From: Rhea pennata
Lineage: Eukaryota > Chordata > Aves > Rheiformes > Rheidae
Assembly (NCBI RefSeq): GCF_028389875.1
Contig: NC_084663.1
Span: 215,908,876-215,972,875, forward strand
DNA length: 64,000 bases
Reading direction: 5' to 3'
A program made the translations under genes and the position numbers. Of this stretch, positions 9,570 to 64,000 are shown piece by piece. Numbering within the stretch: position 1 is the stretch's first letter; every line of letters begins with the position of its first letter. The notes under the pieces were generated by a model that saw only the letters and a list, made by a program, of their open reading frames with translations, searched no databases and had not been told where the DNA came from.

Positions 9570-29541
<19,972 letters not shown>

Positions 29542-34446: not shown

Positions 34447-34452
34447 AATAAA
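34447..34452 (+). terminator. Polyadenylation signal for IL18BP
   Basis: AATAAA (in CTGTAAATAAACTC), 346 nt after the IL18BP stop; 34102-34446 is its GC-rich 3'UTR. Confidence 0.85.
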
Positions 34453-34494: not shown

Positions 34495-34965
34495 GGCAGG
34501 GGGAGCCGGGACCCCACGGGGAGCCACGATCCCGGGGGGAGCCGGGACCCCACAGAGAGCTGTGATCCCGGGGGGAGCCACGATCCCGGGGGGAGCCGGG
34601 AGCCCACGGAGAGCTGTGATCCCGGGGGGAGTCACAGTCACAGGGGGGGCAGGATCCTGGGGGGAGCCGGGATCCTGGGAGGAGCTGGGATCCCGGGGGG
34701 AGCTGGGACCCCATGGAGAGCCATGATCCCAGGGGGAGCTGGGATCCCACGGAGAGCCGTGATCCCAGGTGGAGCAGGGATCCCAGGGGGAGCCGGGATC
34801 CTGGGGGGAGCTGGGATCCCGGGGGGAGCTGGGACCCCATGGAGAGCCGTGATCCTGGGAGGATCGAGGACCCCACATGGGAGCCAGGACCCTGCAGAGA
34901 CCCGGGATCCCGTGGAGAGCAGGGACCGTGCAGGGAGCTGGGGTCTTGCGGAGAGCTGGGACATG
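34495..34965. repeat. 18-bp-type minisatellite downstream of IL18BP
   Basis: Repeated GATCCCGGGGGGAGCCGGGA, GATCCTGGGGGGAGC and GGACCCCATGGAGAGC; period about 18 bp arranged in 36-54 bp groups, degenerate at both edges. Confidence 0.9.
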
Positions 34966-35313
34966 GCGAGGCAGCCCGGGTCCCGCAGCAGCACCGCTGC
35001 TGAGCCGAGCCCGCAACCCGCCGGGAGCAGCGCCGGGTTCTGGAGATGCCGCTCCATCCTTGCGCGTTCTCCCGCTGCCAGAACTGAAAGTGCGGAGGTG
35101 GTTTCACCACTTTCGTCCCATTCGCGCTCTGTGCGCGGCTCCGGTCTCAGGCGGAGCCCTGGGCACGCGCTCGGCAGGCCATGCAGCGCTGCCGGGCTAC
35201 TCCGGTGACAAACTGTTGGTGCCTCCATGGACAACAGTGTGCAGGAGGGACTGGGGGCAGGGAGCATGGCCATGGGTGGGAAATGGGCAGGGAGCACAGT
35301 GGTGGGTGCAGGT
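34966..35313. other. Unique spacer between the downstream minisatellite and the 26-bp array
   Basis: Non-repetitive apart from GGGCAGGGAGCA-like G-rich words just before the array. No gene recognised. Confidence 0.6.
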
Positions 35314-36949
35314 GTGTGCGAGAGCAGTCACTGCACCGTGCACGTGGGAGCAGTCAGTGCACCGTGCGTGGGAGAGCGGTCAGTGCACCGTGCGTGGGAG
35401 AGCGGTCAGTGCCCCGCGCGTGGGAGAGCGGTCAGTGCCCCGTGCGTGGGAGAGCGGTCAGTGCACGGTGCGTGGGAGAGCGGTCAGTGCCCCGTGCGTG
35501 GGAGAGCGGTCAGTGCACGGTGCGTGGGAGAGCGGTCAGTGCCCCGTGCATGGGAGAGCGGTCAGTGCACTGTGCGTGGGAGAGCGGTCAGTGTACGGTG
35601 CGTGGGAGAGCGGTCAGTGCACGGTGCGTGGGAGAGCGGTCAGTGCCCCGTGCGTGGGAGAGCGGTCACTGCACCGTGCGTGGGAGAGCGGTCAGTGCCC
35701 CGTGCGTGGGAGAGCGGTCAGTGCACCGTGCGTGGGAGAGCGGTCAGTGCACCACGCGTGGGAGAGCGGTCAGTGCCCCGTGCGTGGGAGAGCGGTCAGT
35801 GCACGGTGCGTGGGAGAGCGGTCAGTGCACCGTGCGTGGGAGAGTGGTCAGTGCACCACGCGTGGGAGAGCGGTCAGTGCCCCGTGCGTGGGAGAGCGGT
35901 CACTGCACCGTGCGTGGGAGAGCGGTCAGTGCCCCGTGCGTGGGAGAGCGGTCAGTGCTCCGTGCGTGGGAGAGCGGTCAGTGCACCGTGCGTGGGAGAG
36001 CGGTCAGGGCCCCGTGCGTGGGAGAGCGGTCAGTGCACCGTGCGTGGGAGAGCGGTCAGTGCACGGTGCGTTGGAGAGCGGTCAGTGCACCGTGCGTGGG
36101 AGAGCGGTCAGTGCCCCGTGCGTGGGAGAGCGGTCAGTGCACCGTGCGTGGGAGAGCGGTCACTGCACCGTGCGTGGGAGAGCGGTCAGTGCACCATGCG
36201 TGGGAGAGCGGTCAGTGCACTGTGCGTGGGAGAGCGGTCACTGCCCCGTGCGTGGGCGAGCGGTCAGTGGCCCGTGCGTGGGAGAGCGGTCAGTGCCCCG
36301 TGCGTGGGAGAGCGGTCAGTGCACCGTGCGTGGGAGAGCGGTCAGTGCTCCGTGCGTGGGAGAGCGGTCAGTGCACCGTGCGTGGGAGAGCGGTCACTGC
36401 ACCGTGCGTGGGAGAGCGGTCAGTGCACCATGCGTGGGAGAGCGGTCAGTGCACTGTGCGTGGGAGAGCGGTCAGTGCCCCGTGCGTGGGAGAGCGGTCA
36501 GTGCCCCGTGCGTGGGAGAGCGGTCAGTGCACTGTGCGTGGGAGAGCGGTCAGTGCACCGTGCGTGGGAGAGCGGTCAGTGCACCGTGCATGGGAGAGCG
36601 GTCAGTGGCCCGTGCGTGGGAGAGCGGTCAGTGCCCCGTGCGTGGGAGAGCGGTCAGTGCACTGCGCGTGGGAGAGCGGTCAGTGCCCCGTGCGTGGGCG
36701 AGCGGTCAGTGGCCCGTGCGTGGGAGAGCGGTCAGTGCCCCGTGCGTGGGAGAGCGGTCAGTGCACCATGCGTGGGAGAGCGGTCAGTGCACCGTGCGTG
36801 GGAGAGCGGTCAGTGGCCCGTGCGTGGGAGAGCGGTCAGTGCACTGTGCGTGGGAGAGCGGTCAGTGCCCCGTGCGTGGGAGAGCGGTCAGTGCCCCGTG
36901 CGTGGGAGAGCGGTCAGTGCTCCGTGCGTGGGAGAGCGGTCAGTGCTCC

Positions 36950-37620
36950 GTGCGTGGGAGAGCGGTCAGTGCCCCGTGCGTGGGAGAGCGGTCAGTGCCC
37001 CGTGCGTGGGAGAGCGGTCACTGCACCGTGCGTGGGAGAGCGGTCAGTGCTCCGTGCGTGGGAGAGCGGTCAGTGCCCCGTGCGTGGGAGAGCGGTCAGT
37101 GCACCGTGCGTGGGAGAGCGGTCAGTGCACGGTGCCTGGGAGAGCGGTCAGTGCCCCGTGCGTGGGAGAGCGGTCACTGCACCGTGCGTGGGAGAGCGGT
37201 CAGTGCACTGTGCGTGGGAGAGCGGTCAGTGCACCGTGCGTGGGAGAGCGGTCAGTGCCCCGTGCGTGGGAGAGCGGTCAGTGCCCCGTGCGTGGGAGAG
37301 CGGTCAGTGCTCCGTGCGTGGGAGAGCGGTCAGTGCTCCGTGCGTGGGAGAGCGGTCAGTGCCCCGTGCGTGGGAGAGCGGTCAGTGCCCCGTGCGTGGG
37401 AGAGCGGTCACTGCACCGTGCGTGGGAGAGCGGTCAGTGCTCCGTGCGTGGGAGAGCGGTCAGTGCCCCGTGCGTGGGAGAGCGGTCAGTGCACCGTGCG
37501 TGGGAGAGCGGTCAGTGCACGGTGCCTGGGAGAGCGGTCAGTGCCCCGTGCGTGGGAGAGCGGTCACTGCACCGTGCGTGGGAGAGCGGTCAGTGCTCCG
37601 TGCGTGGGAGAGCGGTCAGT
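36950..37620. repeat. 390-bp (15-mer) higher-order repeat, two copies
   Basis: The rare monomer ending GGTGCCTGGG occurs at 37131 and 37521 (390 = 15 x 26), embedded in the same order of variant monomers. The same pair recurs at 43501 and 43891. Confidence 0.85.
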
Positions 37621-39300
37621 GCCCCGTGCGTGGGAGAGCGGTCAGTGCCCCGTGCGTGGGAGAGCGGTCAGTGCCCCGTGCGTGGGAGAGCGGTCACTGC
37701 ACCGTGTGTGGGAGAGCGGTCAGTGCCCCGTGCGTGGGAGAGCGGTCACTGCACTGTGCGTGGGAGAGCGGTCAGTGCCCCGTGCGTGGGAGAGCGGTCA
37801 GTGCCCCGTGCGTGGGAGAGCGGTCAGTGCACCGTGCGTGGGAGAGCGGTCAGTGCCCCGTGCGTGGGAGAGCGGTCAGTGCATTGTGCGTGGGAGAGCG
37901 GTCAGTGCACCGTGCGTGGGAGAGCGGTCAGTGCACGGTGCGTGGGAGAGCGGTCAGTGCCCCGTGCGTGGGAGAGCGGTCAGTGCACCGTGCGTGGGAG
38001 AGCGGTCACTGCACTGTGCGTGGGAGAGCGGTCAGTGCCCCGTGCGTGGGAGAGCGGTCAGTGCCCCGTGCGTGGGAGAGCGGTCAGTGCACCACGCGTG
38101 GGAGAGCGGTCAGTGGCCCGTGCGTGGGAGAGCGGTCAGTGCCCCGTGCGTGGGCGAGCAGTCAGTGGCCCGTGCGTGGGCGAGCGGTCAGTGGCCCGTG
38201 CGTGGGCGAGCGGTCAGTGCCCCGTGCGTGGGAGAGCGGTCAGTGCCCCGTGCGTGGGAGTGCGGTCAGTGCCCCGTGCGTGGGAGAGCGGTCAGTGCAC
38301 CGTGCGTGGGAGAGCGGTCAGTGCCCCGTGCGTGGGAGAGCGGTCAGTGCCCCGTGCGTGGGAGAGCGGTCAGTGCACCGTGCGTGGGAGAGCGGTCAGT
38401 GCCCCGTGCGTGGGAGAGCGGTCAGTGCACCGTGCGTGGGAGTGCGGTCAGTGCACTGTGCGTGGGAGAGTGGTCAGTGCACGGTGCGTGGGAGAGCGGT
38501 CAGTGCACCGTGCGTGGGAGTGCGGTCAGTGCATTGTGCGTGGGAGAGCGGTCAGTGCACCATGCGTGGGAGAGCGGTCAGTGCACCGTGCGTGGGAGTG
38601 CGGTCAGTGCATTGTGCGTGGGAGAGCGGTCAGTGCACTGTGCGTGGGAGAGCGGTCAGTGCACCGTGCGTGGGAGAGCGGTCAGTGCACCGTGCGTGGG
38701 AGAGCGGTCAGTGCACGGTGCGTGGGAGAGCGGTCAGTGCCCCGTGCGTGGGAGAGCGGTCAGTGCACTGTGCGTGGGAGAGCGGTCAGTGCCCCGCGCG
38801 TGGGAGAGCGGTCAGTGCCCCGTGCGTGGGAGAGCGGTCAGTGCCCCGTGCGTGGGAGAGCGGTCAGTGCCCCGTGCGTGGGAGAGCGGTCAGTGCACCG
38901 TGCGTGGGAGAGCGGTCACTGCACCGTGCGTGGGAGAGCGGTCAGTGCCCCGTGCGTGGGAGAGCGGTCAGTGCACCGTGCGTGGGAGAGCGGTCAGTGC
39001 ACTGTGCGTGGGAGAGCGGTCAGTGCCCCGTGCGTGGGAGAGCGGTCAGTGCACTGTGCGTGGCAGAGCGGTCAGTGGCCCGTGCGTGGGAGAGCGGTCA
39101 GTGCCCCGTGCGTGGGAGAGCGGTCAGTGCCCCGTGCGTGGGAGAGCGGTCAGTGCATTGTGCGTGGGAGAGCGGTCAGTGCACTGTGCGTGGGAGAGCG
39201 GTCAGTGCACGGTGCGTGGGAGAGCGGTCAGTGCACGGTGCGTGGGAGAGCGGTCACTGCACGGTGCGTGGGAGAGCGGTCAGTGCCCCGTGCGTGGGAG

Positions 39301-40600
39301 AGCGGTTAGTGCCCCGTACGTGGGATAGCGGTCAGTGGCCCGTGCGTGGGAGAGCGGTCAGTGCCCCGTGCGTGGGAGAGCGGTCAGTGCATTGTGCGTG
39401 GTAGAGCGGTCAGTGCCCCGTGCGTGGGAGAGCGGTCAGTGCACCGTGCGTGGGAGAGCGGTCAGTGCATTGTGCGTGGTAGAGCGGTCAGTGCCCCGTG
39501 CGTGGGAGAGCGGTCAGTGCCCCGTGCGTGGGAGAGCGGTCAGTGCCCTGTGCGTGGGAGAGCGGTCAGTGCACCGTACGTGGGAGAGCGGTCAGTGCCC
39601 CGTGCGTGGGAGAGCGGTCAGTGCATTGTGCGTGGGAGAGCGGTCAGTGCCCCGTGCGTGGGAGAGCGGTCAGTGCCCTGTGCGTGGGAGAGCGGTCAGT
39701 GCACCGTACGTGGGAGAGCGGTCAGTGCCCCGTGCGTGGGAGAGCGGTCAGTGCATTGTGCGTGGGAGAGCGGTCAGTGCCCCGTGCGTGGGAGAGCGGT
39801 CAGTGCACGGTGCGTGGGAGAGCGGTCAGTGTCCCGTGCGTGGGAGAGCGGTCAGTGCACCGTGCGTGGGAGAGCGGTCAGTGCCCCGTGCGTGGGAGAG
39901 CGGTCAGTGCACGGTGCGTGGGAGAGCGGTCAGTGCCCCGTGCGTGGGAGAGCGGTTAGTGCCCCGTACGTGGGATAGCGGTCAGTGGCCCGTGCGTGGG
40001 AGAGCGGTCAGTGCCCCGTGCGTGGGAGAGCGGTCAGTGCATTGTGCGTGGTAGAGCGGTCAGTGCCCCGTGCGTGGGAGAGCGGTCAGTGGCCCGTGCG
40101 TGGGAGAGCGGTCAGTGCCCCGTGCGTGGGAGAGCGGTCAGTGCATTGTGCGTGGGAGAGCGGTCAGTGCACTGTGCGTGGGAGAGCGGTCAGTGGCCTG
40201 TGCGTGGGAGAGCGGTCAGTGCACCGTACGTGGGAGAGCGGTCAGTGCCCCGTGCGTGGGAGAGCGGTCAGTGCATTGTGCGTGGGAGAGCGGTCAGTGC
40301 CCCGTGCGTGGGAGAGCGGTCAGTGCACGGTGCGTGGGAGAGCGGTCAGTGTCCCGTGCGTGGGAGAGCGGTCAGTGCACCGTGCGTGGGAGAGCGGTCA
40401 GTGCCCCGTGCGTGGGAGAGCGGTCAGTGCACGGTGCGTGGGAGAGCGGTCAGTGCATTGTGCGTGGGAGAGCGGTCAGTGCACTGTGCGTGGGAGAGCG
40501 GTCAGTGCCCCGTGCGTGGGAGAGCGGTCAGTGCACGGTGCGTGGGAGAGCGGTCAGTGCATTGTGCGTGGGAGAGCGGTCAGTGCCCCGTGTGTGGGAG
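39301..40600. repeat. 650-bp (25-mer) higher-order repeat, two copies
   Basis: The mutated monomer GGTTAGTGCCCCGTACGTGG followed by GATAGCGG occurs at 39305 and 39955 (650 = 25 x 26), with matching neighbours. The pair recurs at 45441 and 46091. Confidence 0.88.
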
Positions 40601-43600
40601 AGCGGTCAGTGCACCGTGCGTGGGAGAGCAGTCAGTGCACCGTGCGTGGGAGAGCGGTCAGTGCCCCGCGCGTGGGAGAGCGGTCAGTGCCCCGTGCGTG
40701 GGAGAGCGGTCAGTGCCCCGTGTGTGGGAGAGCGGTCAGTGCACCGTGCGTGGGAGAGCGGTCAGTGCACCGCGCGTGGGAGAGCGGTCAGTGCACTGTG
40801 CGTGGGAGAGCGGTCAGTGCACCGTGTGTGGGAGAGCGGTCAGTGCACTGTGCGTGGGAGAGCGGTCAGTGCCCCGTGCGTGGGAGAGCGGTCAGTGCAC
40901 GGTGCGTGGGAGAGCGGTCAGTGCATTGTGCGTGGGAGAGCGGTCAGTGCACCGTGCGTGGGAGAGCGGTCAGTGCACCGCGCGTGGGAGAGCGGTCACT
41001 GCACTGTGCGTGGGAGAGCGGTCAGTGCCCCGTGCGTGGGAGAGCGGTCAGTGCACTGTGCGTGGGAGAGCGGTCAGTGCCCCGTGCGTGGGAGAGCGGT
41101 CAGTGCACGGTGCGTGGGAGAGCGGTCAGTGCATTGTGCGTGGGAGAGCGGTCAGTGCACCGTGCGTGGGAGAGCGGTCAGTGCACCGTGCGTGGGAGAG
41201 CGGTCAGTGCCCCGTGCGTGGGAGAGCGGTCAGTGCACGGTGCGTGGGAGAGCGGTCAGTGCACCGTGCGTGGGAGAGCGGTCAGTGCACCATGCGTGGG
41301 AGAGCGGTCAGTGCACTGTGCGTGGGAGAGCGGTCACTGCACCGCGCGTGGGAGAGCGGTCAGTGCACCGCGCGTGGGAGAGCGGTCAGTGCACCGCGCG
41401 TGGGAGAGCGGTCAGTGCACTGTGCGTGGGAGAGCGGTCAGTGCACGGTGCGTGGGAGAGCGGTCAGTGCCCCGTGCGTGGGAGAGCGGTCAGTGCACTG
41501 TGCGTGGGAGAGCGGTCACTGCACCATGCGTGGGAGAGCGGTCAGTGCCCCGTGCGTGGGAGAGCGGTCAGTGCCCCGTGCGTGGGAGAGCGGTCAGTGC
41601 ACCGTGCGTGGGAGAGCGGTCAGTGCCCCGTGCGTGGGAGAGCGGTCACTGCACCATGCGTGGGAGAGCGGTCAGTGCACCGCGCGTGGGAGAGCGGTCA
41701 CTGCACCATGCGTGGGAGAGCGGTCAGTGCACTGTGCGTGGGAGAGCGGTCAGTGCACTGTGCGTGGGAGAGCGGTCAGTGCCCCGTGCGTGGGAGAGCG
41801 GTCACTGCACCATGCGTGGGAGAGCGGTCAGTGCCCCGTGCGTGGGAGAGCGGTCACTGCACCATGCGTGGGAGAGCGGTCAGTGCACCGCGCGTGGGAG
41901 AGCGGTCACTGCACCATGCGTGGGAGAGCGGTCAGTGCACCGCGCGTGGGAGAGCTGTCACTGCACCATGCGTGGGAGAGCGGTCACTGCACCATGCGTG
42001 GGAGAGCGGTCAGTGCCCCGTGCGTGGGAGAGCGGTCAGTGCACTGTGCGTGGGAGAGCGGTCAGTGCCCCGTGCGTGGGAGAGCGGTCAGTGCACGGTG
42101 CGTGGGAGAGCGGTCAGTGCATGGTGCGTTGGAGAGCGGTCAGTGCACCGTGCGTGGGAGAGCGGTCAGTGCACCGTGCGTGGGAGAGCGGTCAGTGCCC
42201 CGTGCGTGGGAGAGCGGTCAGTGCACTGTGCGTGGGAGAGCGGTCAGTGCACCATGCGTGGGAGAGCGGTCAGTGCCCCGTGCGTGGGAGAGCGGTCAGT
42301 GCACCATGCGTGGGAGAGCGGTCAGTGCACGGTGCGTGGGAGAGCGGTCAGTGCCCCGTGCGTGGGAGAGCGGTCAGTGCACCGCGCGTGGGAGAGCGGT
42401 CAGTGCACGGTGCGTGGGAGAGCGGTCAGTGCCCCGTGCGTGGGAGAGCGGTCAGTGCCCCGTGCGTGGGAGAGCGGTCAGTGCACCGTGCGTGGGAGAG
42501 CGGTCACTGCACCGTGCGTGGGAGAGCGGTCAGTGCACCATGCGTGGGAGAGCGGTCAGTGCACTGTGCGTGGGAGAGCGGTCACTGCCCCGTGCGTGGG
42601 CGAGCGGTCAGTGGCCCGTGCGTGGGAGAGCGGTCAGTGCCCCGTGCGTGGGAGAGCGGTCAGTGCACCGTGCGTGGGAGAGCGGTCAGTGCTCCGTGCG
42701 TGGGAGAGCGGTCAGTGCACCGTGCGTGGGAGAGCGGTCACTGCACCGTGCGTGGGAGAGCGGTCAGTGCACCATGCGTGGGAGAGCGGTCAGTGCACTG
42801 TGCGTGGGAGAGCGGTCAGTGCCCCGTGCGTGGGAGAGCGGTCAGTGCCCCGTGCGTGGGAGAGCGGTCAGTGCACTGTGCGTGGGAGAGCGGTCAGTGC
42901 ACCGTGCGTGGGAGAGCGGTCAGTGCACCGTGCGTGGGAGAGCGGTCAGTGGCCCGTGCGTGGGAGAGCGGTCAGTGCCCCGTGCGTGGGAGAGCGGTCA
43001 GTGCACTGCGCGTGGGAGAGCGGTCAGTGCCCCGTGCGTGGGCGAGCGGTCAGTGGCCCGTGCGTGGGAGAGCGGTCAGTGCCCCGTGCGTGGGAGAGCG
43101 GTCAGTGCACCATGCGTGGGAGAGCGGTCAGTGCACCGTGCGTGGGAGAGCGGTCAGTGGCCCGTGCGTGGGAGAGCGGTCAGTGCACTGTGCGTGGGAG
43201 AGCGGTCAGTGCACCGTGCGTGGGAGAGCGGTCAGTGCCCCGTGCGTGGGAGAGCGGTCAGTGCCCCGTGCGTGGGAGAGCGGTCAGTGCTCCGTGCGTG
43301 GGAGAGCGGTCAGTGCTCCGTGCGTGGGAGAGCGGTCAGTGCCCCGTGCGTGGGAGAGCGGTCAGTGCCCCGTGCGTGGGAGAGCGGTCACTGCACCGTG
43401 CGTGGGAGAGCGGTCAGTGCTCCGTGCGTGGGAGAGCGGTCAGTGCCCCGTGCGTGGGAGAGCGGTCAGTGCACCGTGCGTGGGAGAGCGGTCAGTGCAC
43501 GGTGCCTGGGAGAGCGGTCAGTGCCCCGTGCGTGGGAGAGCGGTCACTGCACCGTGCGTGGGAGAGCGGTCAGTGCACTGTGCGTGGGAGAGCGGTCAGT

Positions 43601-46600
43601 GCACCGTGCGTGGGAGAGCGGTCAGTGCCCCGTGCGTGGGAGAGCGGTCAGTGCCCCGTGCGTGGGAGAGCGGTCAGTGCTCCGTGCGTGGGAGAGCGGT
43701 CAGTGCTCCGTGCGTGGGAGAGCGGTCAGTGCCCCGTGCGTGGGAGAGCGGTCAGTGCCCCGTGCGTGGGAGAGCGGTCACTGCACCGTGCGTGGGAGAG
43801 CGGTCAGTGCTCCGTGCGTGGGAGAGCGGTCAGTGCCCCGTGCGTGGGAGAGCGGTCAGTGCACCGTGCGTGGGAGAGCGGTCAGTGCACGGTGCCTGGG
43901 AGAGCGGTCAGTGCCCCGTGCGTGGGAGAGCGGTCACTGCACCGTGCGTGGGAGAGCGGTCAGTGCTCCGTGCGTGGGAGAGCGGTCAGTGCCCCGTGCG
44001 TGGGAGAGCGGTCACTGCACCGTGTGTGGGAGAGCGGTCAGTGCCCCGTGCGTGGGAGAGCGGTCACTGCACTGTGCGTGGGAGAGCGGTCAGTGCCCCG
44101 TGCGTGGGAGAGCGGTCAGTGCCCCGTGCGTGGGAGAGCGGTCAGTGCACCGTGCGTGGGAGAGCGGTCAGTGCCCCGTGCGTGGGAGAGCGGTCAGTGC
44201 ATTGTGCGTGGGAGAGCGGTCAGTGCACCGTGCGTGGGAGAGCGGTCAGTGCACGGTGCGTGGGAGAGCGGTCAGTGCCCCGTGCGTGGGAGAGCGGTCA
44301 GTGCACCGTGCGTGTGAGAGCGGTCAGTGCACCACGCGTGGGAGAGCGGTCAGTGGCCCGTGCGTGGGAGAGCGGTCAGTGCCCCGTGCGTGGGCGAGCA
44401 GTCAGTGGCCCGTGCGTGGGAGAGCGGTCAGTGCCCCGTGCGTGGGAGAGCGGTCAGTGCCCCGTGCGTGGGAGAGCGGTCAGTGCCCCGTGCGTGGGAG
44501 TGCGGTCAGTGCCCCGTGCGTGGGAGAGCGGTCAGTGCACCGTGCGTGGGAGAGCGGTCAGTGCACTGTGCGTGGGAGAGCGGTCAGTGCCCCGTGCGTG
44601 GGAGAGCGGTCAGTGCCCCGTGCGTGGGAGAGCGGTCAGTGCACCGTGCGTGGGAGAGCGGTCAGTGCCCCGTGCGTGGGAGAGCGGTCAGTGCACCGTG
44701 CGTGGGAGTGCGGTCAGTGCACTGTGCGTGGGAGAGTGGTCAGTGCACGGTGCGTGGGAGAGCGGTCAGTGCACCGTGCGTGGGAGTGCGGTCAGTGCAT
44801 TGTGCGTGGGAGAGCGGTCAGTGCACCGTGCGTGGGAGAGCGGTCAGTGCACGGTGCGTGGGAGAGCGGTCAGTGCCCCGTGCGTGGGAGAGCGGTCAGT
44901 GCCCCGTGCGTGGGAGAGCGGTCAGTGCACTGTGCGTGGGAGAGCGGTCAGTGCCCCGCGCGTGGGAGAGCGGTCAGTGCCCCGTGCGTGGGAGAGCGGT
45001 CAGTGCCCCGTGCGTGGGAGAGCGGTCAGTGCACCGTGCGTGGGAGAGCGGTCACTGCACCGTGCGTGGGAGAGCGGTCAGTGCCCCGTGCGTGGGAGAG
45101 CGGTCAGTGCACCGTGCGTGGGAGAGCGGTCAGTGCACTGTGCGTGGGAGAGCGGTCAGTGCCCCGTGCGTGGGAGAGCGGTCACTGCACTGTGCGTGGC
45201 AGAGCGGTCAGTGGCCCGTGCGTGGGAGAGCGGTCAGTGCCCCGTGCGTGGGAGAGCGGTCAGTGCCCCGTGCGTGGGAGAGCGGTCAGTGCATTGTGCG
45301 TGGGAGAGCGGTCAGTGCACTGTGCGTGGGAGAGCGGTCAGTGCACGGTGCGTGGGAGAGCGGTCAGTGCACGGTGCGTGGGAGAGCGGTCACTGCACGG
45401 TGCGTGGGAGAGCGGTCAGTGCCCCGTGCGTGGGAGAGCGGTTAGTGCCCCGTACGTGGGATAGCGGTCAGTGGCCCGTGCGTGGGAGAGCGGTCAGTGC
45501 CCCGTGCGTGGGAGAGCGGTCAGTGCATTGTGCGTGGTAGAGCGGTCAGTGCCCCGTGCGTGGGAGAGCGGTCAGTGCACCGTGCGTGGGAGAGCGGTCA
45601 GTGCATTGTGCGTGGTAGAGCGGTCAGTGCCCCGTGCGTGGGAGAGCGGTCAGTGCCCCGTGCGTGGGAGAGCGGTCAGTGCCCTGTGCGTGGGAGAGCG
45701 GTCAGTGCACCGTACGTGGGAGAGCGGTCAGTGCCCCGTGCGTGGGAGAGCGGTCAGTGCATTGTGCGTGGGAGAGCGGTCAGTGCCCCGTGCGTGGGAG
45801 AGCGGTCAGTGCCCTGTGCGTGGGAGAGCGGTCAGTGCACCGTACGTGGGAGAGCGGTCAGTGCCCCGTGCGTGGGAGAGCGGTCAGTGCATTGTGCGTG
45901 GGAGAGCGGTCAGTGCCCCGTGCGTGGGAGAGCGGTCAGTGCACGGTGCGTGGGAGAGCGGTCAGTGTCCCGTGCGTGGGAGAGCGGTCAGTGCACCGTG
46001 CGTGGGAGAGCGGTCAGTGCCCCGTGCGTGGGAGAGCGGTCAGTGCACGGTGCGTGGGAGAGCGGTCAGTGCCCCGTGCGTGGGAGAGCGGTTAGTGCCC
46101 CGTACGTGGGATAGCGGTCAGTGGCCCGTGCGTGGGAGAGCGGTCAGTGCCCCGTGCGTGGGAGAGCGGTCAGTGCATTGTGCGTGGTAGAGCGGTCAGT
46201 GCCCCGTGCGTGGGAGAGCGGTCAGTGGCCCGTGCGTGGGAGAGCGGTCAGTGCCCCGTGCGTGGGAGAGCGGTCAGTGCATTGTGCGTGGGAGAGCGGT
46301 CAGTGCACTGTGCGTGGGAGAGCGGTCAGTGGCCTGTGCGTGGGAGAGCGGTCAGTGCACCGTACGTGGGAGAGCGGTCAGTGCCCCGTGCGTGGGAGAG
46401 CGGTCAGTGCATTGTGCGTGGGAGAGCGGTCAGTGCCCCGTGCGTGGGAGAGCGGTCAGTGTCCCGTGCGTGGGAGAGCGGTCAGTGCACCGTGCGTGGG
46501 AGAGCGGTCAGTGCCCCGTGCGTGGGAGAGCGGTCAGTGCACGGTGCGTGGGAGAGCGGTCAGTGCACTGTGCGTGGGAGAGCGGTCAGTGCCCCGTGCG

Positions 46601-49600: not shown

Positions 49601-50404
49601 GTCACTGTACCGCGCGTGGGAGAGCGGTCAGTGCCCCGTGCGTGGGAGAGCGGTCAGTGCACCGCGCGTGGGAGAGCGGTCAGTGCCCCGTGCGTGGGAG
49701 AGCGGTCAGTGCACTGTGCGTGGGAGAGCGGTCAGTGCCCCGTGCGTGGGAGAGCGGTCAGTGCACGGTGCGTGGGAGAGCGGTCAGTGCACCGCGCGTG
49801 GGAGAGCGGTCAGTGCCCCGCGCGTGGGAGAGCGGTCACTGCACCATGCGTGGGAGAGCGGTCACTGCACCGCGCGTGGGAGAGCGGTCATTGCCCCGTG
49901 CGTGGGAGAGCGGTCAGTGCCCCGTGCGTGGGAGAGCGGTCAGTGCACCATGCGTGGGAGAGCGGTCAGTGCACGGTGCGTGGGAGAGCGGTCACTGCAC
50001 CGTGCGTGGGAGAGCGGTCAGTGCACCATGCGTGGGAGAGCGGTCAGTGCCCCGCGCGTGGGAGAGCGGTCACTGCACCATGCGTGGGAGAGCGGTCACT
50101 GCACCGCGCGTGGGAGAGCGGTCATTGCCCCGTGCGTGGGAGAGCGGTCAGTGCCCCGTGCGTGGGAGAGCGGTCAGTGCACCATGCGTGGGAGAGCGGT
50201 CAGTGCACGGTGCGTGGGAGAGCGGTCACTGCACCGTGCGTGGGAGAGCGGTCAGTGCACCGTGCGTGGGAGAGCGGTCAGTGCACCGTGCGTGGGAGAG
50301 CGGTCAGTGCACGGTGCGTGGGAGAGCGGTCAGTGCACGGTGCGTGGGAGAGCGGTCACTGCACCGTGCGTGGGAGAGCGGTCAGTGCCCCGTGCGTGGG
50401 AGAG

Positions 50405-53400: not shown

Positions 53401-56400
53401 GTGCACCGCGCGTGGGAGAGCGGTCAGTGCCCCGTGCGTGGGAGAGCGGTCAGTGCACCGTGCGTGGGAGAGCGGTCAGTGCACCATGCGTGGGAGAGCG
53501 GTCAGTGCCCCGTGCGTGGGAGAGCGGTCAGTGCACCGCGCGTGGGAGAGCGGTCAGTGCACCATGCGTGGGAGAGCGGTCAGTGCACTGTGCGTGGGAG
53601 AGCGGTCAGTGCCCCGTGCGTGGGAGAGCGGTCAGTGCCCCGTGCGTGGGAGAGCGGTCAGTGCACCGCGCGTGGGAGAGCGGTCAGTGCCCCGTGCGTG
53701 GGAGAGCGGTCAGTGCACGGTGCGTGGGAGAGCGGTCAGTGCACCGTGCGTGGGAGAGCGGTCAGTGCACCGCGCGTGGGAGAGCGGTCAGTGCCCCGTG
53801 CGTGGGAGAGCGGTCAGTGCACCGTGCGTGGGAGAGCGGTCAGTGCACTGTGCGTGGGAGAGCGGTCAGTGCCCCGTTTGTGGGAGAGCGGTCACTGCAC
53901 CGTGCGTGGGAGAGCGGTCACTGCACCGTGCGTGGGAGAGCGGTCAGTGCACTGTGCGTGGGAGAGCGGTCAGTGCACGGTGCGTGGGAGAGCGGTCACT
54001 GCACCGTGCGTGGGATAGCGGTCAGTGCACGGTGCGTGGGAGAGCGGTCAGTGCCCCGTGCGTGGGAGAGCGGTCAGTGCCCGGTGCGTGGGAGAGCGGT
54101 CAGTGCACCGTGCGTGGGAGAGCGGTCAGTGCACGGTGCGTGGGAGAGCGGTCAGTGCACCATGCGTGGGAGAGCGGTCAGTGCACCGCGCGTGGGAGAG
54201 CGGTCAGTGCCCAGTGCGTGGGAGAGCGGTCAGTGCACCGTGCGTGGGAGAGCGGTCAGTGCCCCGTGCGTGGGAGAGCGGTCAGTGCACGGTGCATGGG
54301 AGAGCGGTCAGTGCACCATGCGTGGGAGAGCGGTCAGTGCACCGTGTGTGGGAGAGCGGTCAGTGCCCCGTGCGTGGGAGAGCGGTCAGTGCACTGTGCG
54401 TGGGAGAGCGGTCAGTGCACGGTGCGTGGGAGAGCGGTCAGTGCACCGTGCGTGGGAGAGCGGTCACTGCACCATGCGTGGGAGAGCGGTCAGTGCACGG
54501 TGCGTGGGAGAGCGGTCACTGCACCATGCGTGGGAGAGCGGTCAGTGCACGGTGCGTGGGAGAGCGGTCAGTGCACCGTGCGTGGGAGAGCGGTCAGTGC
54601 ACCGCGCGTGGGAGAGCGGTCAGTGCACGGTGCGTGGGAGAGCGGTCAGTGCACCATGCGTGGGAGAGCGGTCAGTGCACGGTGCGTGGGAGAGCGGTCA
54701 GTGCCCCGTGCGTGGGAGAGCGGTCAGTGCACCGTGCGTGGGAGAGCGGTCAGTGCCCCGTGCGTGGGAGAGCGGTCAGTGCACCGTGCGTGGGAGAGCG
54801 GTCAGTGCCCCGTGCGTGGGAGAGCGGTCACTGCACCGCGCGTGGGAGAGCGGTCACTGCACCATGCGTGGGAGAGCGGTCAGTGCCCCGTGCGTGGGAG
54901 AGTGGTCAGTGCACCGCGCGTGGGAGAGTGGTCAGTGCACCGTGCGTGGGAGAGCGGTCAGTGCCCCGTGCGTGGGAGAGTGGTCAGTGCACCGTGCGTG
55001 GGAGAGCGGTCAGTGCCCCGTGCGTGGGAGAGCGGTCAGTGCACGGTGCCTGGGAGAGCGGTCAGTGCACCATGCGTGGGAGAGCGGTCAGTGCTCCGTG
55101 CGTGGGAGAGCGGTCACTGCACCATGCGTGGGAGAGCGGTCAGTGCTCCGTGCGTGGGAGAGCGGTCAGTGCACCATGCGTGGGAGAGCGGTCAGTGCAC
55201 GGTGCGTGGGAGAGCGGTCAGTGCACCGCGCGTGGGAGAGCGGTCACTGCACCGCGCGTGGGAGAGCGGTCAGTGCACCGTGCGTGGGAGAGCGGTCAGT
55301 GCACCGTGCGTGGGAGAGCGGTCACTGCACCATGCGTGGGAGAGCGGTCAGTGCTCCGTGCGTGGGAGAGCGGTCACTGCACCATGCGTGGGAGAGCGGT
55401 CAGTGCTCCGTGCGTGGGAGAGCGGTCACTGCACCATGCGTGGGAGAGCGGTCAGTGCACCGTGCGTGGGAGAGCGGTCACTGCACCATGCGTGGGAGAG
55501 CGGTCACTGCACGGTGCGTGGGAGAGCGGTCAGTGCCCCGTGCGTGGGAGAGCGGTCAATGCACCGTGCGTGGGAGAGCGGTCACTGCACCATGCGTGGG
55601 AGAGCGGTCAGTGCTCCGTGCGTGGGAGAGCGGTCACTGCACCATGCGTGGGAGAGCGGTCACTGCACCGTGCGTGGGAGAGCGGTCAGTGCACCGCGCG
55701 TGGGAGAGCGGTCAGTGCCCCGTGTGTGGGAGAGCGGTCAGTGCACCGTGTGTGGGAGAGCGGTCAGTGCCCCGTGCGTGGGAGAGCGGTCACTGCACCG
55801 TGCGTGGGAGAGCGGTCAGTGCCCCGTGCGTGGGAGAGCGGTCAGTGCACGGTGCGTGGGAGAGCGGTCAGTGCACCGTGCGTGGGAGAGCGGTCAGTGC
55901 CCCGTGTGTGGGAGAGCGGTCAGTGCACGGTGCGTGGGAGAGCGGTCAGTGCACGGTGCGTGGGAGAGCGGTCAGTGCACCGCGCGTGGGAGAGCGGTCA
56001 GTGCCCCGTGCGTGGGAGAGCGGTCACTGCACCGCGCGTGGGAGAGCGGTCAGTGCACGGTGCCTGGGAGAGCGGTCACTGCACCGTGCGTGGGAGAGCG
56101 GTCAGTGCCCCGTGCGTGGGAGAGCGGTCAGTGCACTGTGCGTGGGAGAGCGGTCAGTGCCCCGTGCGTGGGAGAGCGGTCAGTGCACGGTGCCTGGGAG
56201 AGCAGTCAGTGCCCCGTGCGTGGGAGAGCGGTCAGTGCCCCGTGCGTGGGAGAGCGGTCAGTGCACCGTGCGTGGGAGAGCGGTCAGTGCACGGTGCCTG
56301 GGAGAGCAGTCAGTGCCCCGTGCGTGGGAGAGCGGTCACTGCACCGTGCGTGGGAGAGCGGTCAGTGCACGGTGCGTGGGAGAGCGGTCAGTGCACCGTG

Positions 56401-59400
56401 CGTGGGAGAGCGGTCAGTGCACCGTGCGTGGGAGAGCGGTCAGTGCTCCGTGCGTGGGAGAGCGGTCACTGCACGGTGCGTGGGAGAGCGGTCAGTGCCC
56501 CGTGCGTGGGAGAGCGGTCAGTGCCCCGTGCGTGGGCGAGCGGTCAGTGCACGGTGCGTGGGAGAGCGGTCAGTGCACGGTGCGTGGGAGAGCGGTCAGT
56601 GCCCCGTGCGTGGGAGAGCGGTCAGTGCACTGTGCGTGGGAGAGCGGTCAGTGCACCGTGCGTGGGAGAGCGGTCAGTGCACGGTGCGTGGGAGAGCGGT
56701 CACTGCACCGTGCGTGGGAGAGCGGTCAGTGCACTGCGCGTGGGAGAGCGGTCTGTGCCCAGTGCGTGGGAGAGCGGTCAGTGCACCGTGCGTGGGAGAG
56801 CGGTCACTGCACCGTGCGTGGGAGAGCGGTCAGTGCCCCGTGCGTGGGAGAGCGGTCAGTGCACCGCGCGTGGGAGAGCGGTCAGTGCACCGCGCGTGGG
56901 AGAGCGGTCAGTGCACCGTGCGTGGGAGAGCGGTCAGTGCACCGTGCGTGGGAGAGCGGTCAGTGCACCGCGCGTGGGAGAGCGGTCAGTGCACCGTGCG
57001 TGGGAGAGCGGTCAGTGCACTGTGCGTGGGAGAGCGGTCAGTGCACTGTGCGTGGGAGAGCGGTCAGTGCCCCGTGCGTGGGAGAGCGGTCAGTGCCCCG
57101 TGCGTGGGAGAGCGGTCACTGCACGGTGCGTAGGAGAGCGGTCAGTGCCCCGTGCGTGGGAGAGCGGTCACTGCACGGTGCGTGGGAGAGCGGTCAGTGC
57201 ACCATGCGTGGGAGAGCGGTCACTGCACCATGCGTGGGAGAGCGGTCAGTGCACCGTGCGTGGGAGAGCGGTCAGTGCCCCGTGCGTGGGAGAGCGGTCA
57301 GTGCTCTGTGCGTGGGAGAGCGGTCAGTGCACCGTGCGTGGGAGAGCGGTCAGTGCACCGTGCGTGGGAGAGCGGTCAGTGCACTGTGCGTGGGAGAGCG
57401 GTCAGTGCCCCGTGCGTGGGAGAGCGGTCACTGCACCGTGCGTGGGAGAGCGGTCAGTGCACCGTGCGTGGGAGAGCGGTCAGTGCCCCGTGCGTGGGAG
57501 AGCGGTCAGTGCACCGTGCGTGGGAGAGCGGTCAGTGCCCCGTGCGTGGGAGAGCGGTCAGTGCCCCGCGCGTGGGAGAGCGGTCAGTGCACTGTGCGTG
57601 GGAGAGCGGTCAGTGCACTGCGCGTGGGAGAGCGGTCAGTGCACCGTGCGTGGGAGAGCGGTCAGTGCACTGTGCGTGGGAGAGCGGTCACTGCACCGTG
57701 CGTGGGAGAGCGGTCAGTGCCCCGTGCGTGGGAGAGCGGTCAGTGCACTGTGCGTGGGAGAGCGGTCAGTGCACGGTGCGTGGGAGAGCGGTCAGTGCCC
57801 CGTGCGTGGGAGAGCGGTCAGTGCCCCGTGCGTGGGAGAGCGGTCAGTGCACTGTGCGTTGGAGAGCGGTCAGTGCCCCGTGCGTGGGAGAGCGGTCACT
57901 GCACCGTGCGTGGGAGAGCGGTCAGTGCCCCGTGCGTGGGAGAGCGGTCACTGCACCGTGCGTGGGAGAGCGGTCAGTGCCCCGCGCGTGGGAGAGCGGT
58001 CAGTGCCCCGTGCCTGGGAGAGCGGTCAGTGCCCCGTGCGTGGGAGAGCGGTCAGTGCCCCGTGCGTGGGAGAGCGGTCAGTGCACTGTGCGTGGGAGAG
58101 CGGTCAGTGCCCAGTGCGTGGGAGAGCGGTCAGTGCCCCGCGCGTGGGAGAGCGGTCACTGCACCGTGCATGGGAGAGCGGTCAGTGCACCGCGCGTGGG
58201 AGAGCGGTCAGTGCCCCGTGCGTGGGAGAGCGGTCAGTGCACTGTGCGTGGGAGAGCGGTCAGTGCACCGTGCGTGGGAGAGCGGTCAGTGCACTGTGCG
58301 TGGGAGAGCGGTCACTGCACCGTGCGTGGGAGAGCGGTCAGTGCCCCGTGCGTGGGAGAGCGGTCAGTGCCCCGTGCGTGGGAGAGCGGTCACTGCACCG
58401 TGCGTGGGAGAGCGGTCACTGCACCGTGCGTGGGAGAGCGGTCAGTGCACCGTGCGTGGGAGAGCGGTCAGTGCACCATGCGTGGGAGAGCGGTCAGTGC
58501 CCCGTGCGTGGGAGAGCGGTCAGTGCCCCGTGCGTGGGAGAGCGGTCCCTGCACCGTGCGTGGGAGAGCGGTCACTGCACCGTGCGTGGGAGAGCGGTCA
58601 GTGCCCCGTGCGTGGGAGAGCGGTCAGTGCCCCTTGCGTGGGAGAGCGGTCACTGCACCATGCGTGGGAGAGCGGTCACTGCACCGCGCGTGGGAGAGCG
58701 GTCATTGCCCCGTGCGTGGGAGAGCGGTCAGTGCCCCGTGCGTGGGAGAGCGGTCAGTGCACCATGCGTGGGAGAGCGGTCAGTGCACGGTGCGTGGGAG
58801 AGCGGTCACTGCACCGTGCGTGGGAGAGCGGTCAGTGCACCATGCGTGGGAGAGCGGTCAGTGCACGGTGCGTGGGAGAGCGGTCACTGCACCGTGCGTG
58901 GGAGAGCGGTCAGTGCCCCGTGCGTGGGAGAGCGGTAACTGCACCGCGCGTGGGAGAGCGGTGAGTGCCCCGTGCGTGGGAGAGCGGTCAGTGCACTGCG
59001 TGTGGGAGAGCGGTCAGTGCCCAGTGCGTGGGAGAGCGGTGAGTGCACCGTGCGTGGGAGAGCGGTGAGTGCACCGTGCGTGGGAGAGCGGTCACTGCAC
59101 CGCGCGTGGGAGAGCGGTCACTGCACCATGCGTGGGAGAGCGGTCAGTGCCCCGTGCGTGGGAGAGCGGTCAGTGCACGGTGCGTGGGAGAGCGGTCAGT
59201 GCACCGCGCGTGGGAGAGCGGTCACTGCACCATGCGTGGGAGAGCGGTCAGTGCCCCGTGCGTGGGAGAGCGGTCAGTGCACCGTGCGTGGGAGAGCGGT
59301 CACTGCACCATGCGTGGGAGAGCGGTCAGTGCACCGTGCGTGGGAGAGCGGTCAGTGCACCGTGCGTGGGAGAGCGGTCAGTGCACGGTGCCTGGGAGAG

Positions 59401-62400
59401 CGGTCACTGCACCATGCGTGGGAGAGCGGTCAGTGCACCGTGCGTGGGAGAGCGGTCACTGCACCATGCGTGGGAGAGCGGTCAGTGCACCGTGCGTGGG
59501 AGAGCGGTCACTGCACCATGCGTGGGAGAGCGGTCACTGCACGGTGCGTGGGAGAGCGGTCAGTGCCCCGTGCGTGGGAGAGCGGTCAGTGCCCCGTGCG
59601 TGGGAGAGCGGTCAGTGCACCGTGCGTGGGAGAGCGGTCACTGCACCATGCGTGGGAGAGCGGTCAGTGCTCCGTGCGTGGGAGAGCGGTCACTGCACCA
59701 TGCGTGGGAGAGCGGTCAGTGCACCGTGCGTGGGAGAGCGGTCACTGCACCATGCGTGGGAGAGCGGTCACTGCACGGTGCGTGGGAGAGCGGTCAGTGC
59801 CCCGTGCGTGGGAGAGCGGTCAGTGCACCGTGCGTGGGAGAGCGGTCACTGCACCATGCGTGGGAGAGCGGTCAGTGCTCCGTGCGTGGGAGAGCGGTCA
59901 CTGCACCATGCGTGGGAGAGCGGTCAGTGCCCCGTGCGTGGGAGAGCGGTCAGTGCCCCGTGCGTGGGAGAGCGGTCACTGCACCGTGCGTGGGAGAGCG
60001 GTCAGTGCCCCGTGCGTGGGAGAGCGGTCAGTGCACGGTGCGTGGGAGAGCGGTCACTGCACCGTGCGTGGGAGAGCGGTCACTGCACCGCGCGTGGGAG
60101 AGCGGTCAGTGCACGGTGCCTGGGAGAGCGGTCACTGCACCGTGCGTGGGAGAGCGGTCAGTGCACCGTGCGTGGGAGAGCGGTCAGTGCACGGTGCCTG
60201 GGAGAGCGGTCACTGCATCGTGCCTGGGAGAGCGGTCAGTGCCCCGTGCCTGGGAGAGCGGTCAGTGCACCGTGCGTGGGAGAGCGGTCAGTGCACGGTG
60301 CGTGGGAGAGCGGTCAGTGCACGGTGCCTGGGAGAGCGGTCACTGCACCGTGCGTGGGAGAGCGGTCAGTGCCCCGTGCGTGGGAGAGCGGTCAGTGCAC
60401 GGTGCCTGGGAGAGCGGTCACTGCACCGTGCGTGGGAGAGCGGTCAGTGCACCGTGCGTGGGAGAGCGGTCAGTGCACTGTGCGTGGGAGAGCGGTCAGT
60501 GCCCCGTGCGTGGGAGAGCGGTCAGTGCACGGTGCGTGGGAGAGCGGTCAGTGCCCCGTGCGTGGGAGAGCGGTCAGTGCACCGTGCGTGGGAGAGCGGT
60601 CAGTGCACCGTGCGTGGGAGAGCGGTCAGTGCACCGTGTGTGGGAGAGCGGTCACTGCACCATGCGTGGGAGAGCGGTCAGTGCACTGTGCGTGGGAGAG
60701 CGGTCAGTGCCCCGTGCGTGGGAGAGCGGTCAGTGCCCCTTGCGTGGGAGAGCGGTCACTGCACCGTGCGTGGGAGAGCGGTCAGTGCCCCGTGCGTGGG
60801 AGAGCGGTCAGTGCCCCTTGCGTGGGAGAGCGGTCAGTGCACCGTGCGTGGGAGAGCGGTCAGTGCACGGTGCGTGGGAGAGCGGTCAGTGCCCCGCGCG
60901 TGGGAGAGCGGTCAGTGCACCGCGCGTCGGAGAGCGGTCAGTGCACCGCGCGTGGGAGAGCGGTCAGTGCCCCGTGCGTGGGAGAGCGGTCAGTGCACCG
61001 CGCGTGGGAGAGCGGTCAGTGCACCGCGCGTCGGAGAGCGGTCAGTGCACCGTGCGTGGGAGAGCGGTCAGTGCCCCGTGCGTGGGAGAGCGGTCAGTGC
61101 ACCGCGCGTGGGAGAGCGGTCAGTGCCCCGTGCGTGGGAGAGCGGTCAGTGCACCGTGCGTGGGAGAGCGGTCAGTGCACCATGCGTGGGAGAGCGGTCA
61201 GTGCACCGTGCGTGGGAGAGCGGTCAGTGCACCATGCGTGGGAGAGCGGTCAGTGCACCATGCGTGGGAGAGCGGTCAGTGCACCGTGCGTGGGAGAGCG
61301 GTCAGTGCACGGTGCGTGGGAGAGCGGTCAGTGCCCCGTGCGTGGGAGAGCGGTCAGTGCCCCGTGCGTGGGAGAGCGGTCAGTGCACCATGCGTGGGAG
61401 AGCGGTCAGTGCACCGTGCGTGGGAGAGCGGTCAGTGCACCGCGCGTGGGAGAGCGGTCAGTGCACCATGCGTGGGAGAGCGGTCAGTGCACTGTGCGTG
61501 GGAGAGCGGTCAGTGCACCGTGCGTGGGAGAGCGGTCAGTGCACCGCGCGTGGGAGAGCGGTCAGTGCACCGTGCGTGGGAGAGCGGTCAGTGCCCCGTG
61601 CGTGGGAGAGCGGTCAGTGCCCCGTGCGTGGGAGAGCGGTCAGTGCACCGTGCGTGGGAGAGCGGTCAGTGCACTGTGCGTGGGAGAGCGGTCAGTGCCC
61701 CGTTTGTGGGAGAGCGGTCACTGCACCGTGCGTGGGAGAGCGGTCACTGCACCGTGCGTGGGAGAGCGGTCAGTGCACTGTGCGTGGGAGAGCGGTCAGT
61801 GCACGGTGCGTGGGAGAGCGGTCACTGCACCGTGCGTGGGATAGCGGTCAGTGCACGGTGCGTGGGAGAGCGGTCAGTGCCCCGTGCGTGGGAGAGCGGT
61901 CAGTGCCCGGTGCGTGGGAGAGCGGTCAGTGCACCGTGCGTGGGAGAGCGGTCAGTGCACGGTGCGTGGGAGAGCGGTCAGTGCACCATGCGTGGGAGAG
62001 CGGTCAGTGCACCGCGCGTGGGAGAGCGGTCAGTGCCCAGTGCGTGGGAGAGCGGTCAGTGCACCGTGCGTGGGAGAGCGGTCAGTGCCCCGTGCGTGGG
62101 AGAGCGGTCAGTGCACGGTGCATGGGAGAGCGGTCAGTGCACCATGCGTGGGAGAGCGGTCAGTGCACCGTGTGTGGGAGAGCGGTCAGTGCCCCGTGCG
62201 TGGGAGAGCGGTCAGTGCACTGTGCGTGGGAGAGCGGTCAGTGCCCCGTGTGTGGGAGAGCGGTCAGTGCCCCGTGCGTGGGAGAGCGGTCAGTGCCCCG
62301 TGCGTGGGAGAGCGGTCAGTGCCCCGTGCGTGGGAGAGCGGTCAGTGCACGGTGCGTGGGAGAGCGGTCAGTGCACCGTGCGTGGGAGAGCGGTCACTGC

Positions 62401-64000
62401 ACCATGCGTGGGAGAGCGGTCAGTGCACGGTGCGTGGGAGAGCGGTCACTGCACCATGCGTGGGAGAGCGGTCAGTGCACGGTGCGTGGGAGAGCGGTCA
62501 GTGCACCGTGCGTGGGAGAGCGGTCAGTGCACCGCGCGTGGGAGAGCGGTCAGTGCACGGTGCGTGGGAGAGCGGTCAGTGCACCATGCGTGGGAGAGCG
62601 GTCAGTGCACGGTGCGTGGGAGAGCGGTCAGTGCCCCGTGCGTGGGAGAGCGGTCAGTGCACCGTGCGTGGGAGAGCGGTCAGTGCCCCGTGCGTGGGAG
62701 AGCGGTCAGTGCCCCGTGCGTGGGAGAGCGGTCAGTGCACCGTGCGTGGGAGAGCGGTCAGTGCCCCGTGCGTGGGAGAGCGGTCACTGCACCGCGCGTG
62801 GGAGAGCGGTCACTGCACCATGCGTGGGAGAGCGGTCAGTGCCCCGTGCGTGGGAGAGTGGTCAGTGCACCGCGCGTGGGAGAGTGGTCAGTGCACCGTG
62901 CGTGGGAGAGCGGTCAGTGCCCCGTGCGTGGGAGAGTGGTCAGTGCACCGTGCGTGGGAGAGCGGTCAGTGCCCCGTGCGTGGGAGAGCGGTCAGTGCAC
63001 GGTGCCTGGGAGAGCGGTCAGTGCACCATGCGTGGGAGAGCGGTCAGTGCTCCGTGCGTGGGAGAGCGGTCACTGCACCATGCGTGGGAGAGCGGTCAGT
63101 GCTCCGTGCGTGGGAGAGCGGTCAGTGCACCATGCGTGGGAGAGCGGTCAGTGCACGGTGCGTGGGAGAGCGGTCAGTGCACCGCGCGTGGGAGAGCGGT
63201 CACTGCACCGCGCGTGGGAGAGCGGTCAGTGCACCGTGCGTGGGAGAGCGGTCAGTGCACCGTGCGTGGGAGAGCGGTCAGTGCACTGTGCGTGGGAGAG
63301 CGGTCAGTGCTCCGTGCGTGGGAGAGCGGTCACTGCACCATGCGTGGGAGAGCGGTCAGTGCTCCGTGCGTGGGAGAGCGGTCACTGCACCATGCGTGGG
63401 AGAGCGGTCAGTGCACCGTGCGTGGGAGAGCGGTCACTGCACCATGCGTGGGAGAGCGGTCACTGCACGGTGCGTGGGAGAGCGGTCAGTGCCCCGTGCG
63501 TGGGAGAGCGGTCAATGCACCGTGCGTGGGAGAGCGGTCACTGCACCATGCGTGGGAGAGCGGTCAGTGCTCCGTGCGTGGGAGAGCGGTCACTGCACCA
63601 TGCGTGGGAGAGCGGTCAGTGCACCGCGCGTGGGAGAGCGGTCAGTGCACCGCGCGTGGGAGAGCGGTCAGTGCCCCGTGTGTGGGAGAGCGGTCAGTGC
63701 ACCGTGTGTGGGAGAGCGGTCAGTGCCCCGTGCGTGGGAGAGCGGTCACTGCACCGTGCGTGGGAGAGCGGTCAGTGCCCCGTGCGTGGGAGAGCGGTCA
63801 GTGCACGGTGCGTGGGAGAGCGGTCAGTGCACCGTGCGTGGGAGAGCGGTCAGTGCCCCGTGTGTGGGAGAGCGGTCAGTGCACGGTGCGTGGGAGAGCG
63901 GTCAGTGCACGGTGCGTGGGAGAGCGGTCAGTGCACCGCGCGTGGGAGAGCGGTCAGTGCCCCGTGCGTGGGAGAGCGGTCACTGCACCGCGCGTGGGAG
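50405..64000. repeat. Second large duplicated block in the array, offset about 7.7-8.5 kb
   Basis: Signposts: GGTAACTGC 50407/58935 (8,528 = 328 monomers); GCGTCGGAG 53231/60927 (7,696 = 296); GGGATAGCG 54016/61842 (7,826 = 301); GTCAATGC 55560/63516 (7,956 = 306). The two copies therefore differ by whole-monomer deletions and insertions. The second copy is cut by the window end. Confidence 0.85.

Follow-up and report, generated by a model that had tools for sequence, protein, structure and literature searches.

Classical minisatellites are strand-asymmetric, and the autosomal hypervariable minisatellites of the MS32/CEB1 type show this asymmetry together with block duplication and reshuffling, as does the array described here; their arrays are much shorter than the present one (at least 28.7 kb), and we claim no relation by descent. 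In the available part of the MSY1 study (PMC2599865), MS32/CEB1-type loci are likewise described as GC-rich, with units of 9–100 bp and interspersed variant repeats. The human minisatellite MSY1 (DYF155S1) is built there from a 25-bp unit, units of any other length never having been observed; it varies by base substitution and changes length by whole units, in steps of 1–3 units for which a strand-annealing model is given (PMC2599865, in excerpt). MSY1 is also 75% A+T and haploid, contains 48–118 units, carries its variants in blocks and has a predicted hairpin (same excerpt). Short-unit arrays with higher-order repeats are known in birds as well: in the accessible part of PMC9974502, the chicken CNM repeat (41-bp unit) lies at centromeres, and the chicken W sate-21 repeat (21-bp unit) has a TTTTC/GAAAA dyad.

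Extent, composition and register of the array

We analyzed a 64,000-nucleotide stretch of the Rhea pennata genome (the window). A first-pass annotation had placed in it a 26-bp satellite of about 1,100 copies and 28.7 kb, starting at 35,314 and directly downstream of IL18BP. Wraparound alignment to a 26-bp consensus delimited the array at 35,312–64,000, that is 28,689 bp, made up of 1,103 full monomers and a last 11 bases, which confirms the earlier copy number and length and shifts the approximately correct start by 2 bases. Because the array passes the window end, this length is a lower bound.

35312..64000, + strand: 26-bp minisatellite array, consensus GTGCGTGGGAGAGCGGTCAGTGCACC; 1,103 full monomers; extends beyond the window
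35255..35311, + strand: degenerate left edge of the array, two GGGCAGGGAGCA motifs followed by 14 bases of an incomplete unit that lacks one base
33262..34101, + strand: IL18BP coding exons, Ig domain with YWLGNGSF at 33,319; PDB 7al7
34447..34452, + strand: sole AATAAA of the 28–35.4 kb interval, 0.86 kb ahead of the array

TRF returned a single array over the same interval, with 0% indels and 93% matches between copies, and the 26-bp autocorrelation was 0.926. Mean identity of the monomers to the consensus was 95.5%, with 95 distinct monomer types and 41 minor alleles across the array. When the window before 35,290 was scanned for near-copies, the best ungapped match had 7 mismatches in 26 bases. 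The array is about 70% G+C: from 36,001 on, 2-kb bins had a GC content of 0.69–0.70 and a GC skew of +0.27 to +0.33.

All 1,103 full monomers are 26 bp long and vary by base change. Base-level alignment revealed no inserted base; the one base that is missing, at about 35,310, falls in the degenerate 14-base fragment that precedes the first full monomer. For no monomer of the 1,103 did edit distance fall below Hamming distance, indicating that compensating indels are favoured nowhere; counted by hand, the second monomer (at 35,338, with 5 mismatches) reads equally well as +2/−2 bases plus one change. From 35,301 on, a single phase was shared by all occurrences of GGTCA (1,079 of 1,079), GAGAGCGGTCA (1,038 of 1,038) and GTGGGAGAG (1,025 of 1,025). 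The 26-bp register noted earlier is thus kept array-wide, and neither the tandem-repeat finder nor the comparison of edit and Hamming distances brought out full monomers of another length.

Mismatches number 4 and 5 in the first two full monomers, whereas the others average 1.16. The interior is flat: each of the 23 bins (of 50 monomers, or 3 in the final bin) lies at 3.9–5.7% divergence. The two GGGCAGGGAGCA copies at 35255–35296, inside the degenerate edge, resemble what we take to be the Jeffreys minisatellite core, GGGCAGGAXG.

The 26-bp unit falls in the range of minisatellites (VNTRs), about 9–100 bp according to the available part of PMC2599865. The array is GC-rich and strand-asymmetric like a classical minisatellite, its substitution variants (the 95 types and 41 minor alleles) are interspersed, and it shows block duplications with whole-unit gains or losses (25 gap events between paralogous blocks, described below). 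With at least 1,103 units, it also reaches the hundreds to thousands of units of satellite DNA. It resembles MSY1 in its near-equal unit (26 vs 25 bp), constant unit length, base-substitution variants and whole-unit change (PMC2599865, in excerpt), and differs from it in being G+C-rich, in its far larger number of units, in having interspersed variants and in folding no better than shuffled sequence. Its unit is not the 41 bp of CNM, from which it is set apart by description rather than by sequence comparison, and its monomer lacks the dyad of sate-21 (PMC9974502, in the part accessible). The array is, we conclude, very probably a minisatellite of very large size, GC-rich and asymmetric between strands, that lies in the 3′ flank of IL18BP and turns over by whole units.

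The monomer was unmatched in the collections searched, so the earlier remark that it is not a named avian satellite stands for these, which excluded bird genomes and repeat libraries. A full-text search with six monomer strings matched one of them, 14 bases long, once in each of two papers, whose titles concern mitochondrial genome dynamics and Sox3 mice. The array was not described among the matches listed, by title and abstract opening, for 26-bp bird satellites, for IL18BP, chicken and minisatellites, or for GC-rich avian repeats. As far as these searches reach, the kind of repeat is already known and the array itself is new. A bacterial or viral origin was rejected, the dimer pattern having no exact match in viral_contigs or genome_contigs.

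The long open frames of the + strand, up to 2,807 codons, would be expected of a protein-coding repeat, a reading that we find hardly credible. The consensus itself has no stop on the + strand, and a 26-bp unit, not divisible by 3, shifts the reading frame from one monomer to the next, so that all three are used in succession. Moreover, stops occur in all three + frames (8, 9 and 10), and of the 7,998 candidates scored against a 153-residue piece, none matched at E 0.001; on these two grounds the coding repeat was ruled out.

The second IL18BP exon (HTNFTCVALSPG at 34,009) was presumed from general similarity. Searched against PDB, it gave no IL18BP match; the ORF at 33,460 matched a repeat protein (E 2.7e-32) and a hydrolase (E 0.023), and a 40-residue piece of it matched a repeat protein (E 2e-11) with no single stretch passing. 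For the gene as neighbour of the array, as annotated earlier, the evidence is the PDB entry 7al7, interleukin-18-binding protein, which was the best of 38 matches (E 1.7e-6), followed by interleukin-1 receptor type 2 (E 8.7e-5). The array begins 1.2 kb after the putative in-frame stop of IL18BP (34,099–34,101), and the AATAAA at 34,447 is a candidate polyadenylation signal for this gene.

Several compositional features were also observed. The CpG observed/expected ratio was 0.98 in the array and 0.58 in the flank, with more than 3,000 CpGs within 28.7 kb. The steady GC skew of +0.3 lies on the IL18BP sense strand, which would provide a setting for R-loops if read-through occurs. At the junction of monomer positions 26 and 1, we counted CG 711 times, TG 134, GG 132, CA 114, AG 6 and CT 5; TA and GA were absent, about 14 of each being predicted from column frequencies, and variants at these two adjacent positions never co-occur.

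Block duplications and probable whole-unit turnover

We recoded the array as its succession of monomer types and ran a self-alignment in which every gap spans whole monomers. Such an alignment is blind to part-monomer indels, the absence of which is established by the base-level alignment, the edit and Hamming distances and the phase counts. Two large duplications and smaller nested ones were found.

36092..42435, + strand: block A1, 244 monomers, 6,344 bp; the alignment continues to 42,461, one monomer into B1
42436..48415, + strand: block B1, head-to-tail copy of A1, from self-alignment of the monomer string
50080..58659, + strand: block A2, 330 monomers (8,580 bp) as given by the offset where it begins
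58660..63989, + strand: block B2, copy of A2, incomplete at the window end
43164..43943, + strand: small nested duplication, 15 monomers (390 bp) present as two exact copies
39264..40433, + strand: small nested duplication, 25 and 20 monomers adjacent; 20 paired, 17 identical

Between A1 and B1, 220 of the 227 paired monomers were identical, with 10 base changes and 12 whole-monomer gap events; B1 starts within one monomer of the end of A1, so that the two blocks abut in register. Between A2 and B2, the corresponding figures were 175 of 194, 23 and 13. A2 was matched in 50,080–56,033 and its remainder is presumed, since B2 meets the window end; we infer that A2 runs right up to B2. Taken together, the pairs had 395 identical monomers of 421, 33 base changes and 25 whole-monomer gap events, and divergence between copies was 0.17% for the 244-monomer block (6.3 kb) and 0.46% for that of about 330 monomers (8.6 kb). 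The block scores were 482 and 365.5, compared with 8–12 in 12 shuffles, made for the first range (which ended at 41,900) and the first block's sizes, and with 10, 11 and 21 when three pairs of unrelated array segments were aligned. The nested duplications found by self-alignment had 15, 18 and 20 paired monomers. Of the 33 base changes, 31 involve a rarer base that is present at least 7 times at the same monomer position in the array, as expected from reshuffling of existing monomers. Taking 2e-9 per site per year as the approximate neutral rate in birds, a figure of general background, would date the blocks to roughly 0.4 and 1.2 million years, with a large error.

These observations, namely whole-unit differences between blocks, variation by substitution only and a decayed left edge beside a flat interior, are the basis of the mechanism that we propose. 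The blocks would be recent tandem duplications, arising when sister chromatids or homologues recombine out of register (unequal exchange), and steps of 1–18 monomers would come from synthesis-dependent strand annealing or slippage. MSY1, with its constant unit length and strand-annealing model, is a precedent (PMC2599865, in excerpt). Pairing between near-identical monomers would set the register, and because it does so, only whole units would move. Such turnover would disperse base variants and purge rare length variants; it would be weakest at the edge of the array, which would be left to decay. No function for IL18BP would be required. The idea of a young array homogenised by whole-monomer exchange, put forward in the first-pass annotation, is supported by the two near-identical block duplications, whose copies are 25 whole-monomer steps apart.

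The copy number and both blocks rest on one assembly, and sequence alone would not separate recent duplication from assembly doubling. A tandem join of two haplotypes, or of wrongly threaded reads, might therefore account for the great length or for the two blocks, and divergences of 0.17% and 0.46% also lie within the allelic range. We nevertheless consider such an artefact unlikely, as the window contains no N, the doublings are two, of different sizes and in different places, rather than one of the whole array, A1 and B1 abut in register, and further duplications are nested in the array. The array is real, striking for its size and regularity, and its mechanism is most likely ordinary, a new one not being needed. 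Its variant monomers act as a barcode that allows base changes, whole-unit steps and duplications to be tallied within one sequence, making the array a readable record of minisatellite evolution and a candidate hypervariable locus in a bird. It also exemplifies the GC-rich repeat blocks that complicate assembly of avian regions.

The deficit of small indels

The first-pass annotation had started from the premise that arrays of this length normally hold monomers of altered length. This premise fits most other repeats of the window: poly-T aside, the other TRF rows with at least 8 copies had 1–21% indels. It is not general, since MSY1 and a second array of the window depart from it.

34497..34855, + strand: separate 18-bp minisatellite, 20 copies, 72% matches, 0% indels (TRF), 0.5 kb from the array

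We scaled the expected number of indels from the 33 base changes between copies or from the 41 minor alleles array-wide. The indel/SNP ratio is 0.05 in chicken. Genome-wide in great tit, indel diversity is 0.000356 and SNP diversity 0.00310, a ratio of about one tenth, and in ancestral repeats the values are 0.000363 and 0.00432 (ratio 0.084); the same paper quotes a human ratio of 0.125 (PMC6543879, in the part available). Over ratios of 0.05 to 0.125, the expectation runs from 1.7 to 5.1 small indels, and the probability of seeing none falls from 0.19 to 0.006. Great-tit-like ratios give about 3–4 expected indels, none being seen, with a chance of none of 0.063 or 0.032 at a ratio of 0.084 and of 0.037 or 0.017 at 0.1 (33 changes or 41 alleles, respectively). 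The deficit is modest, at the low end of expectation, and is probably overstated, because 31 of the 33 changes may be reshuffled monomers. In addition, the longest base run of the consensus is three (four in a CCCC variant), and without longer runs indels should be rarer than the genome average.

The first-pass annotation had raised, as an alternative, a constraint on monomer length such as the phasing of a bound protein. In this reading, each unit would be bound by a protein or a nucleosome array, and other lengths would be purged by selection. The lack of small indels (3–4 expected, chance of none 0.017–0.063) is a weak hint in its favour, as are the indels of most neighbouring repeats, but the nearby 18-bp array has 0% indels at only 72% matches, and the deficit itself is modest. 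Consistent with constraint, positions 1, 2, 20, 24 and 26, each with at least 90 variant copies (a threshold picked after looking), fall within 9 circular positions (p = 0.027), a clustering that leaves a near-invariant core. However, 20 alleles occur at the 14 core positions 6–19 and 21 at the other 12; variants thus arise in the core about as often as outside, so that the core is not protected from mutation, and is protected only from variants reaching high copy number, an outcome that drift can produce. Among offsets of 1–40 monomers, identity peaked at offset 8, or 208 bp (z 5.8), also consistent with constraint, although these z-scores are inflated because block duplications are counted twice. 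Helical phasing does not help either: 26 bp is about 2.5 turns, not a whole number, and neighbouring monomers would face opposite sides. We therefore regard length constraint as improbable. A functional element, comprising at least 1,100 candidate protein-binding sites at fixed spacing beside IL18BP, with a near-invariant core TGGGAGAGCGGTCA and with CpG and register kept by selection and not solely by recombination, seems more improbable still. We conclude that monomer composition and in-register recombination suffice for zero indels and that a length constraint is not needed.

A hairpin was also considered as a length constraint and rejected. In five single-strand folds (the monomer in two rotations, the consensus dimer on both strands and one variant dimer on the + strand), folding was no better than in shuffles, with z from −0.86 to +1.06, and a hairpin, as put forward to explain MSY1, is therefore unsupported here.

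Gene neighbourhood and other repeats

Exons at 19.5, 28.2 and 29.3–29.5 kb on the + strand were taken to be those of RNF121 from familiar motifs. A PDB search of one of them (the ORF at 28,217) gave no RNF121 match; it returned beta-ketothiolases (E 0.0008, residues 129–178) and, for the RING part, the RING protein Arkadia (E 0.55). C-terminal exons of NUMA1 lie on the + strand, from a motif at 583 up to about 1.4 kb, and are supported by the NuMA peptide of PDB 5gxw (E 0.01, 15 of 22 aligned residues identical).

This gene-bearing flank bears on the possibility that the array is the edge of a chromosome-specific centromeric or pericentromeric satellite, with IL18BP as the last gene before it, which would be compatible with the turnover mechanism. 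The array does extend past the window, and chicken centromeres devoid of CNM have chromosome-specific tandem repeats (PMC9974502, in the part available). A short GC-rich unit with strand skew, the CpG observed/expected ratio of 0.98 and the genes of the flank argue against it, as do several unrelated GC-rich minisatellites that TRF found within the same 35 kb, the pattern of a VNTR-rich, GC-rich region. We judge a centromeric location quite unlikely, and prefer a very large minisatellite turned over in whole units.

Within 1–35312, the order is NUMA1(+), RNF121(+), IL18BP(+) and then the array. The human order is presumably RNF121(+), IL18BP(+), NUMA1(−). Since the bird and human orders differ, the array may lie at an evolutionary breakpoint, the site of the mammalian NUMA1 3′ end. 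What we take to be CR1-like 3′ ends lie near 27,217 and near 7,656.

TRF also detected a G+C-rich 84-bp tandem repeat at 8354–9089 (8.8 copies, 98% matches, 1% indels), a family of 38/39-bp G-rich minisatellites at 9710–10578 (4–10% indels) and, between both putative IL18BP exons, a 10/18/36-bp GC-rich minisatellite at 33504–33804.
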